Source of the DNA: a virus
Virus record (IMG/VR): IMGVR_UViG_3300023174_000282
Coordinates: 1 to 44,427 of that record
Reading direction: 5' to 3' (one strand)
Length of the DNA: 44,427 nt
Positions 1 through 2,155 of this stretch are shown here, one piece after another (within the stretch, counting starts at the first letter, position 1; each line of letters opens with the position of its first letter). Under the pieces are notes generated by a model. That model did no database searches. It was not told where the DNA came from and was given only the letters and a program-made list of their open reading frames with translations. Position numbers and translations under genes: made by a program.

Positions 1-143
1 ATGAGGTGCGCTGGGACAAGTGGAAATACAAGCACCAACGTCTTCAGGCGGCGTACGATAATGACACATGGAACCCAAAGCCGAGCGGTCTTTGCAAAGC
101 GTGGTGTCCTGTGTTGACCTGTTCACATAATGGGAGAGCATGA
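1..143 (+). CDS. PD-(D/E)XK / Cas4-like nuclease, C-terminal fragment
   Basis: An open frame runs in from the left edge (codons start at base 3) and stops at TGA 141-143, giving the last 46 residues of a larger protein. The tail reads ...PSGLCKAWCPVLTCSHNG.. and contains Cys31, Cys35 and Cys40 of the visible fragment. A C-terminal cysteine trio of this kind next to a Trp/Pro-rich stretch is typical of phage Cas4/RecB-like exonucleases, where it helps hold an iron-sulfur cluster. The catalytic domain is outside the window, so the family call rests on this tail alone. The stop overlaps the start of the next gene (ATGA), suggesting a coupled pair. In the known family the role would be end-processing or recombination. 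Family assignment is moderately sure; the existence of the reading frame is well supported by its composition and the overlap. Confidence 0.6.
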   Translation, partial: EVRWDKWKYKHQRLQAAYDNDTWNPKPSGLCKAWCPVLTCSHNGRA

Positions 144-436
144 TGCCCTACACCAAATCACCACGTCCGTACAAACACGAGTACGAGATGCAACAAAAGC
201 GCGGCGAACTCGCCGACCGGATGGAGCGCCAACGCGCCCGAAGAAAAGTTGATGCCAGTTCCCCCGATAAGAACGGCAACGGCAAGGCTGACAAGCGGGA
301 AGGCAAGGACATCGACCACGTGAAGATGCTTGCGCGGGGTGGTTCCAACAAGGACGGCATCCGCATAGTTACGCCAGCCAAAAACCGTGCCCGAAACGGA
401 CACAGCCCGAGAGAAAAGGGCGGTAAAAAACCCTGA
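140..436 (+). CDS. Small HNH-family nuclease-like protein
   Basis: A 98-residue, highly basic protein. Residues 50-90 carry the pattern of a minimal HNH fold: Asp59-His60, a GG turn at 67-68, Asn82 and Asn86, which resembles the D-H...N...N arrangement of small phage HNH proteins. The N-terminal third is a charged helix rich in Arg and Lys. It lacks a visible zinc-binding cysteine pair, as many phage mini-HNH proteins do. Two start codons are adjacent (140 and 143). The first forms an ATGA overlap with the upstream nuclease fragment, the second sits at better spacing from GGGAG at 132-136. Nicking or cutting DNA is the family activity; whether this copy is active cannot be told, since a clear second metal-binding His is absent. 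It could be a DNA-binding relic. Confidence 0.65.
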   Translation: MMPYTKSPRPYKHEYEMQQKRGELADRMERQRARRKVDASSPDKNGNGKADKREGKDIDHVKMLARGGSNKDGIRIVTPAKNRARNGHSPREKGGKKP

Positions 437-440
437 TTGA

Positions 441-458
441 CAACCCCTGCAAGGGTTG
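441..458 (+). other. Short stem-loop after the HNH gene
   Basis: CAACCC at 441-446 pairs perfectly with GGGTTG at 453-458 around a six-base loop. It begins five bases after the HNH stop codon. No T-tract follows, so it is not a standard intrinsic terminator. It may protect the 3' end of the mRNA or help separate the upstream message from the tRNA-like element that starts at about 474. Function is inference only. Confidence 0.3.
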
Positions 459-473
459 CTACATTGGGGGTTC

Positions 474-545
474 GGTATCGCGGGTGCACTGGCGAAGCAC
501 AGCCCGACAAGGGAAGGTGACTCGGTTCAAATCCGAGGCGATACC
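474..545 (+). ncRNA. tRNA-like element lacking a normal anticodon arm
   Basis: GGTATCGC (474-481) pairs over eight bases with GCGATACC (538-545), as a tRNA acceptor stem. CTCGG/CCGAG (521-525, 533-537) enclose the seven-base loop TTCAAAT, a textbook T-arm. GTGC/GCAC (484-487, 497-500) enclose a nine-base loop containing GG, a plausible D-arm. Between them, only CCC-GACAA-GGG (503-513) can form a helix: three pairs and a five-base loop with no T before any anticodon, followed by seven unpaired bases. No CCA is encoded. So three arms look like tRNA and the fourth does not. It could be a decayed tRNA, a tRNA mimic, or an RNA processing signal. It lies between the HNH and helicase genes in a 180-base gap. 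Confidence 0.5.
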
Positions 546-616
546 ACTGAAGATAGAGCAGATTGCGGACACCGCTTTCTGCCTATTTTGCATTTATAAC
601 GAGAAGATGAAACGGT

Positions 617-2155
617 ATGGAAATCATTGAAAACAAGGCACTCTTGTTGAAACTGCGCGACCCCGAAAAGGTCACAGCAGTCATACCCAAGAGTCGCGTG
701 ATGGGTGAGCACAACGTGTTGGTGCATTGGGGTTTGGACGAGGCGCAAGTCTTGAAGAACCTGAAGATCAAAAATGTTCCTTCACCAATCCTACGTAGCT
801 ACGCGTGGCCCGGGTTGTACAAGCCATTCGATCACCAGAAAACAACTTCTGCGTTCCTCACTTTAAACAAACGGGCTTTCTGCCTCAACGAGCAGGGTAC
901 TGGCAAAACTGGCTCAGTCATTTGGGCGGCTGACTACCTGATGAAGCAGGGGCGCATCAAGCGCGTACTGGTCATCTGCCCCCTATCAATCATGGACTCT
1001 GCGTGGAGGGCTGACCTGTTCAAGTTCGCCATGCACCGCTCCGTAGACATCGCACACGGCTCCGCTGAGAAACGCCGAGCAGTCATTGAATCCCAAGCTG
1101 AGTTTGTCATCATCAACTTCGATGGTGTCGAGGTGGTGGCTGATGCCATTGACAAGGGTGGGTTTGACTTGATTGTGGTGGACGAGGCGAACGCCTACAA
1201 GAACGCCCAAACAAATCGTTGGAAGGTGCTCAACGGTTTGGTCAAGTCCGATACATGGCTGTGGATGCTGACTGGCACCCCTGCCGCTCAATCCCCTGTG
1301 GACGCATACGGTCTTGCCAAACTTGTCAACCCCCTCGGTGTGCCCAAGTTTTTTGGCTCATTCAAAGACATGGTGATGTACAAGGTCACGCAGTTCAAGT
1401 GGGTACCCAAGCCAAGCGCACTGGAGACGGTATTCAACGCCCTGCAACCTGCAATCCGCTTCACCAAGGACGAGTGCCTTGACCTGCCTGAGATGACGTA
1501 CGTTAACCGCGAGGTGGTGCTGACCAAGCAACAGCAGAAGTTCTACAACCTGATGAAGAACCGCATGGTCATGGAAGCCGCAGGGGAGGAGATCACCGCA
1601 GTCAACGCCGCCGTGAACCTGTCCAAACTCTTACAAATCAGTTGTGGTGCGGTGTATTCGGACACCAAGGAGGTGGTGGAGTTCGACATCAAGAACCGCT
1701 ACGCCGTGCTCAAAGAAGTTATTGACGAGGCCAACCAAAAGGTGCTGGTGTTTGTGCCGTTCAAGCATGCCATCGACCTGATCACCGCCAAGTTACGCGA
1801 GGACGGGATCACCTGTGAAGTCATCCGTGGAGATGTGTCTGCCGTCAGACGCACCGAGATTTTCAAACAGTTCCAAGAGACACCGGAACCTCGGGTTCTT
1901 GTGATTCAGCCGCAATCTGCCGCCCACGGCGTGACGCTCACAGCCGCCGACACGGTGGTGTGGTGGGGGCCGACATCCTCGCTGGAAACCTACGCCCAAG
2001 CAAACGCACGTGTACATCGTGCTGGGCAACGCCATCCATCGGTTGTGATCCGCCTGATGGGGTCTAACGCAGAAAAACATGTTTACACAATGTTAGACAC
2101 TAAAAACGACGTTCACACACAAATTGTTGATCTTTACAAACAATTGCTTGACTAA
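617..2155 (+). CDS. SNF2-like superfamily 2 DNA helicase
   Basis: A 512-residue ATPase with the SF2 motifs in order: a Q-rich entry motif (DHQKTTSAFL near 72-81), Walker A EQGTGKT at 92-98, a DEAN box at 189-192, TGTP at 219-222, and the C-terminal arginine-finger motif VHRAGQ near residue 465. The DEAN/DEAH box together with 'QANARVHRAGQ' is characteristic of the compact phage SNF2/RapA-like helicases. These translocate on duplex DNA and take part in recombination or in clearing bound proteins. Length is normal for the phage family. GAGAAG at 601-606 is a plausible ribosome site ten bases before the ATG. It follows a nuclease and an HNH gene, which fits a recombination/repair module. The last codons overlap the -35 box of the next promoter. 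Confidence 0.9.
   Translation: MEIIENKALLLKLRDPEKVTAVIPKSRVMGEHNVLVHWGLDEAQVLKNLKIKNVPSPILRSYAWPGLYKPFDHQKTTSAFLTLNKRAFCLNEQGTGKTGSVIWAADYLMKQGRIKRVLVICPLSIMDSAWRADLFKFAMHRSVDIAHGSAEKRRAVIESQAEFVIINFDGVEVVADAIDKGGFDLIVVDEANAYKNAQTNRWKVLNGLVKSDTWLWMLTGTPAAQSPVDAYGLAKLVNPLGVPKFFGSFKDMVMYKVTQFKWVPKPSALETVFNALQPAIRFTKDECLDLPEMTYVNREVVLTKQQQKFYNLMKNRMVMEAAGEEITAVNAAVNLSKLLQISCGAVYSDTKEVVEFDIKNRYAVLKEVIDEANQKVLVFVPFKHAIDLITAKLREDGITCEVIRGDVSAVRRTEIFKQFQETPEPRVLVIQPQSAAHGVTLTAADTVVWWGPTSSLETYAQANARVHRAGQRHPSVVIRLMGSNAEKHVYTMLDTKNDVHTQIVDLYKQLLD

Follow-up and report, generated by a model that had tools for sequence, protein, structure and literature searches.

A tRNA-like RNA without an anticodon arm in uncultured aquatic phages: a candidate non-decoding tRNA mimic

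A short intergenic segment in the genome of an uncultured virus raises the question of what a phage RNA could do if it carries the outer arms of a tRNA and nothing that can serve as an anticodon arm. The segment occupies positions 474–545 of a 44,427-base IMG/VR virus record, which was analysed at full length and is called the window here; the copy in it is designated W. Encoded in the window are a terminase, a portal protein, a major capsid protein, a SNF2 helicase and a primase/helicase, and W lies upstream of the helicase gene (Table 1). Anticodon-less tRNA mimics are known from plant-virus RNAs, from tmRNA and from mammalian lncRNAs. The tRNA-like RNA that the initial annotation had proposed at 474–545 is real: it folds as described, and the same RNA occurs in about 50 viral contigs. 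Sequence comparison lends good support to the view that the element is an RNA gene folded like a tRNA.

The element and its relatives

The sequence of W on the plus strand (474–545) is GGTATCG-CGG-GTGC-ACTGGCGAA-GCAC-AG-CCC-GACAA-GGG-AAGGTGA-CTCGG-TTCAAAT-CCGAG-G-CGATACC. Folded alone, it has a minimum free energy of −29.8 kcal/mol (z −3.4), which one of 200 shuffled sequences equalled, and the fold was retained when the whole leader at 437–616 was folded. ARAGORN found neither a tRNA at 474–545 nor a tmRNA in the window, and W is not placed among tRNA genes there. No Rfam family matched W at gathering thresholds; under relaxed limits the scores were 16.9 bits for mascRNA and 15.9 bits for tRNA-Sec.

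Table 1. Features at and around the element in the window
Feature	Position	Strand	Basis
Small ORF upstream, HNH-like according to the initial annotation	140..436	+	phrog_4590 match; no Pfam match
Predicted sigma-70-type promoter: TTGACA 437-442, 17-bp spacer, TACATT 460-465	437..465	+	sequence
Entire tRNA-like RNA, lacking an anticodon arm	474..545	+	sequence, fold, covariation, covariance model
Acceptor stem, 5' strand (partner 539-545)	474..480	+	6 of 7 pairs with double-sided covariation
D-arm: stem 484-487/497-500, loop 488-496	484..500	+	innermost pair UA/CG compensatory
G492, elbow base in the D-loop (tRNA position 19)	492	+	covaries with C528
Short third stem CCC/GGG with GACAA pentaloop 506-510, replacing the anticodon arm	503..513	+	middle pair CG/UA compensatory
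Linker AAGGTGA	514..520	+	AGG invariant
T-arm: stem 521-525/533-537, T-loop TTCAAAT 526-532, C528 paired with G492	521..537	+	4 of 5 stem pairs covary
Acceptor stem, 3' strand	539..545	+	covariation
Discriminator base A, then CTG (not CCA) at the CCA position	546..549	+	CCA comparison across relatives
Hairpin AGATAGAGCAGATTGCGG-ACA-CCGC..CTATTT, resembling a terminator or attenuator, 5' of the helicase ribosome-binding site	551..588	+	fold
SNF2-type DNA helicase downstream	617..2155	+	PF00176, PF00271; phrog_62

Relatives were collected by DNA pattern scans, which yielded 29 distinct sequences, all of them from uncultured aquatic phages. The patterns combined the CGACAAG core with the surrounding arms, and one additional pattern was placed on the downstream hairpin; because they were centred on CGACAAG, the invariance of that core is partly an effect of the search and represents an upper bound. 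The stems, the D-loop and the elbow contact were free or not fully fixed in the patterns. Of 48 records scanned with a covariance model, 44, some as long as 60 kb, contain one strong copy each (72–95 bits); those of L035, L043, L059 and L005 lack a strong copy.

The gap 5' of the helicase gene was compared in 80 contigs with the same helicase and proved variable, holding a relative of the element, other RNAs or almost nothing. L002, whose helicase is 88% identical, carries in this gap a relative with quite different stems. Many phages with a related helicase lack the element, and no copy was present in 11 named relatives (Planktothrix, Pelagibacter, Roseobacter, Caulobacter, Rhizobium and other phages), in which the weak model matches of 11–15 bits resemble chance and were rejected; the element is therefore dispensable in the wider group.

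Beyond these contigs, a blastn comparison of the element with 50,697 named phages gave no match, as did an exact 21-nt scan of the W sequence, and the window DNA at 1–2600 had matches to Rhizobium phages only, each of them weak. A closely similar pattern run on approximately 85,000 bacterial species genomes returned 64 loci, which we rejected as family members: nearly all are tRNA-Val(GAC) genes of normal length according to ARAGORN, none was seen to have the short arm of the family, and the 42 bits that the best of them reached with the covariance model are explained by the pattern having selected them. A structural-descriptor search for further anticodon-less tRNA-like RNAs led, among the loci fetched, to apparently ordinary tRNAs only. 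Half-tRNA matches (TAGCTCGACAAGCTA..) were discarded because they are probably attachment cores, and a resemblance to the B12 riboswitch (GGTGCAAATCC in L209–L214) was dropped, since Rfam gave no such match in L210. Rfam holds no family of this kind, and the open-access literature that was searched contains no report of one in DNA phages.

Covariation, the elbow and the GACAA loop

In an alignment of 23 sequences, 96.1% of the cells at paired positions were paired, and 14 of the 20 pairs showed double-sided changes. The covariation score was 0.630, compared with 0.243 for shuffled alignments and at most 0.115 for slid partners; in a less redundant set of 18 sequences it was 0.678 versus 0.259 after shuffling, and none of 500 shuffles or of the slid controls reached the observed value. 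Unconstrained RNAalifold returned the same structure except for the outermost pair of the short third stem. The acceptor stem differs almost wholly between copies, as evidenced by 5' strands such as GGTATCG, GGCATTG, GATGGTG, AACGATG, CCACCGG, TTTGCCG, GTTGGTG and GCTGCCG, and the partner strand nearly always changes with it, while the length of the element stays nearly constant. Seven of the eight acceptor pairs originally proposed are conserved; the eighth, C481-G538, is not conserved in the relatives.

In a tRNA, G19 of the D-loop pairs with C56 of the T-loop. The corresponding alignment columns, 19 (G492) and 55 (C528), are G-C in 12 and A-U in 11 of the 23 sequences, with no exception, and their neighbours are in agreement, TGG occurring with TTC, TGA with TTT and TAG with TGC, so that the 18-55 contact also matches. 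A tertiary contact that alternates between G-C and A-U is strong evidence, at the level of sequence, for an L-shaped tRNA fold. The comparison shows selection acting on the predicted fold, that is, on the acceptor, D-arm, T-arm and 19-56 contact, while the primary sequence drifts. The invariant A-G-G of the linker resembles the usual variable region of a tRNA.

In the segment that replaces the anticodon arm, C-GACAA-G is identical in all 29 distinct sequences. Its short stem is the weaker one: the closing C-G is invariant, the second pair is C-G or a compensated U-A, and the outer pair is an A.C mismatch in most type-A copies. Based on its likeness to a known phage hairpin discussed below, GACAA probably forms a GNRA-like pentaloop. 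None of the 29 sequences has U33, none has a regular 5-bp stem with a 7-nt loop, and no relative with a full anticodon arm at this locus was found. The compensatory changes that the initial annotation had asked for across related phages are abundant; they extend to all stems and to the elbow contact, in agreement with its argument against simple decay, and the consistently missing anticodon arm bears out its statement that this is not a decoding tRNA.

Genomic sites, promoters and 3' ends

The position of the element varies among the phages. It lies in the leader of the SNF2 helicase in W, L002, L085, L086, L088, L107, L126, L212 and L213, directly 3' of the helicase in L117, in the terminase leader in L084, L124, L205, L206, L209–L211 and others, and in the leader of an RNA ligase in L082. 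Further copies are found in the major-capsid 3' UTR immediately 5' of an intrinsic terminator (L090, L101, L108, L120, L135, L201 and others); a reading in which the capsid frame ended inside the D-loop was wrong, and the stop codon is located 4–7 nt 5' of the element. The phages are linked by capsid genes that are 80–86% identical across the groups or by helicase genes held in common, which indicates that related phages carry the element at different sites. Two phages, L262 and L266, have it as the first member of a cluster that also contains genuine genes for tRNA-Pro, Tyr, His, Asn, Trp and Glu; the cluster of L266 sits just 5' of the terminase genes. ARAGORN overlooks the element even inside such clusters, which means that tRNA finders miss RNA genes located within phage tRNA clusters.

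The −10 box of W ends 8 nt 5' of the element. The same arrangement, with the −10 box ending 6–9 nt 5' of the first base, was seen in 10 leader copies (99th percentile of the background score, 8.3), and five of the copies (W, L002, L085, L086 and L117) also possess TTGACA at a spacing of 16–18 bp; no clear −10 box at 6–9 nt was present in the leaders of L082, L107, L205, L206, L212 and L213. In the promoter copies the start site would fall at about the first acceptor base, so that 5' processing would not be needed there. The proposal that the element is a processing signal between the HNH and helicase messages finds no support as a general role, because the element starts at a promoter start site and its neighbours differ in the relatives. 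The promoter spacer of W and its relatives (437–465) contains an inverted repeat whose sequence is phage-specific (AACCC..GGGTT, AATCC..GGATT, GCGCACCGATTGGTGCGC); variation of this kind is as expected for putative repressor-specific operators.

In 7 of the 27 distinct sequences, CCA is encoded right after the discriminator (p ~5e-7 versus background, with relatedness ignored); counted by distinct acceptors, the figure is 6 of 16. Several of these CCAs lie inside mRNA leaders, a location best explained by excision of the RNA in the manner of a tRNA. The element also appears to move as a unit: between L205 and L206 it is 100% identical with flanks at 51–62%, and conversely W and L088 share 67% identity in the element and 99% in the next 150 bp. 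Other values from this flank comparison, in which flanks were short, are less reliable. W and L088 have the same acceptor except for one compensated pair, and their inner arms differ.

Possible roles and neighbouring RNAs

The explanation that we favour, and consider quite likely, is a small phage RNA gene whose product would be a trans-acting, tRNA-processed, non-decoding tRNA mimic. A trans-acting RNA from the tRNA pathway is suggested by the single copy per genome, the free choice of neighbours, the placement at start sites, before terminators or in tRNA clusters, the CCA and the elbow. The RNA would be released from its transcript by start-site definition, by host tRNA-processing enzymes or by both; RNase P would trim the 5' end where a leader exists, and RNase Z or exonucleases, together with CCA addition, would form the 3' end. 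A tRNA-binding factor of the host (or of the phage) could then recognise the elbow and acceptor, with the GACAA loop docking on a protein or on another RNA, and no decoding by the RNA is expected. The predicted partner would thus read the elbow, the acceptor and the GACAA loop only. As to the target, allele exchange together with the fixed loop hints at a decoy or docking role. The exchange of alleles between near-identical phages is why a decoy or modulator directed against the host tRNA-handling or tRNA-attacking machinery is our first choice of target class, a speculation that we regard as rather doubtful. A fuller scheme, in which the RNAs form a phage-specific class of mimics that is matured by the host, docks through a GNRA-like loop, is exchanged as a cassette and works as an effector (e.g. 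as a decoy that diverts a tRNA-cutting defence, or by modulating a factor that binds tRNA), is tentative, though conceivable. If true, phages encode tRNA-shaped RNAs for purposes other than decoding.

Among known systems, mascRNA/menRNA (RF01684) is the best match in the way that it works, with an acceptor, a T-arm, a D/T elbow and a compact loop for the anticodon region. RNase P and RNase Z cut it out of a longer transcript, and the elbow is kept for both enzymes; it receives a CCA and is not aminoacylated (PMC11693755). Unlike the phage element, it is a nuclear lncRNA product, and the sequences are unrelated; with the RF01684 model L108 scored 25.6 bits, and both this value and that of W are below the gathering threshold of 42.5. 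In the Rfam consensus of the pneumococcal sRNA SpF41 (RF02435), the outer stem resembles an acceptor, the T-arm is GGTTCGAATCC and a terminator follows immediately 3'; F41 pull-downs contained RNase Z and Cbf1 (PMC7196914). L108 matched RF02435 with 33.6 bits (E 6e-4; gathering threshold 52 bits), and W gave no match to it under relaxed Rfam limits; SpF41 is chromosomal, the match is sub-threshold and a shared GACAA core was not seen. In tRNAOther, a pseudo-tRNA of Bacillus cereus, a tRNA fold is likewise recruited outside translation (PMC3399842). That RNA differs in having a Trp anticodon, residing in a bacterial genomic island and being part of a larger RNA. The tRNA-like domain of tmRNA has the acceptor, T-arm and elbow and lacks an anticodon arm, but the phage element has no mRNA-like part and no G3-U70 pair (columns 3-70 are CG in 11, UA in 6 and GC in 1 of the 18-sequence set).

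The frequent position at a transcript end would also fit a role in cis, either in RNA stability or in antitermination. As a transcript cap, a very stable fold placed at the very start of the mRNA, or just ahead of its terminator, would protect the helicase, terminase or capsid message against 5'- or 3'-dependent decay, and a free RNA would be unnecessary. This accords with 10 leader copies in which the first base of the element coincides with the expected +1, and with the capsid copies lying directly between stop codon and intrinsic terminator, but any hairpin would suffice for stability, and the elbow covariation, the invariant GACAA, the CCA in leaders and the membership in tRNA clusters would be left unexplained; we consider it unlikely. 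An RNA antiterminator, whether a site that resembles boxB and is recognised by an N-type arginine-rich peptide or a put-like RNA acting on RNA polymerase from the transcript start, appears quite improbable. Its attraction lies in P22 boxB, whose GACAA pentaloop, identical to that of the phage element, folds like a GNRA loop, has its C looped out and is bound by the N peptide (PMC12550061), and in the promoter-proximal position of the element, 5' of hairpins, in several phages. P22 boxB is a lone hairpin outside any tRNA fold, however, and boxA-like sequence is absent near the element, with one match in 28 copies, 171 nt downstream. HK022 put is similarly a structured RNA of ~70 nt that opens an early phage transcript, yet it consists of two long stem-loops in a V (PMC9378689), whereas the phage element is a four-way tRNA-like junction, a fold that has not been described for put. 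Antitermination would require neither full conservation of acceptor and T-arm nor CCA nor tRNA clusters, and the one copy per genome would have to serve different operons in different relatives.

That the element decodes after all, through the highly unusual anticodon loop CGACAAG with a nominal anticodon ACA or GAC, is very unlikely. The acceptor, D- and T-arms are intact, some copies have CCA or lie in tRNA clusters, and a mismatched 5-bp stem can be drawn in type-A copies. Against this, reading CGACAAG as a 7-nt loop puts G, and never U, at position 33, ARAGORN rejects the copies scanned, and the stem is interrupted by A.A and A.C mismatches in the majority of type-A copies, while in W-type copies its 5' side falls 2 nt short. 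A decayed tRNA gene or attachment-site remnant would be consistent with the weak tRNA-Sec score and with the half-tRNA, attP-like cores of other contigs, but every stem and the elbow are compensated, the length is nearly constant and the cassette moves intact; the covariation refutes this reading.

Several other RNAs accompany the element or occupy its usual site. The core of the hairpin at 551–588 also occurs in L001, L002/L083 and L085–L088; it has an asymmetric TTT bulge (GCGG-ACA-CCGC-TTT), and hairpins of similar make-up lie 5' of the helicase in most relatives. In L003 (before 983), L006, L007, L011, L013, L014, L018, L019, L028, L029, L034 and L060, the helicase gap is taken up by another structured RNA. 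It has a hairpin with the loop GTAA-GGYRTGAGTG, which can pair as a covarying pseudoknot with CGCACC/CATACC/CGCGTC/CATGCC further downstream; a third hairpin comes next. Eight loci gave no Rfam match at gathering level, and judging by sequence this RNA seems to be another new family, possibly one that substitutes for the tRNA-like element. L001 (2297–2476), with a helicase 98% identical, lacks the element at the usual site. Downstream of the hairpin it carries a different tRNA-like RNA, one arm of which reads CTAG-GTGA-CTAG (GNRA loop), and a long upstream stem, CCAACAAG..CTTGTTGG, competes for the acceptor strand of this RNA. L084 (~11351–11150, minus strand) and L262 (~1090–960, minus strand) share an RNA-like sequence, GCATAAGCCGAAGGCTCGRGTCYTAATCT..; in L084 a T-arm is followed by a D-arm-like hairpin, in permuted order, within the CCAACAAG/CTTGTTGG stem.

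Unusual tRNA genes were seen as well. Adjoining the element in L262 (1092–1166, minus strand) is an ARAGORN tRNA-Met(cat) with a T-loop of about AGCGTTA and no RF00005 match. L137, L145, L175, L161, L136, L089, L110 and many others contain an ARAGORN tRNA-Val(GAC) with the anticodon loop TCGACAA, that is, with C33 for U33; such genes occur in Gammaproteobacteria, Planctomycetota, Bacteroidota and phages. The tRNA-Val-type 3' halves (TAGCTCGACAAGCTAGGGGTC..TCGCCCACT) in L093, L095, L103, L106, L109, L123, L125, L127–L130 and L133, which have no clear 5' half, are probably phage attachment cores.
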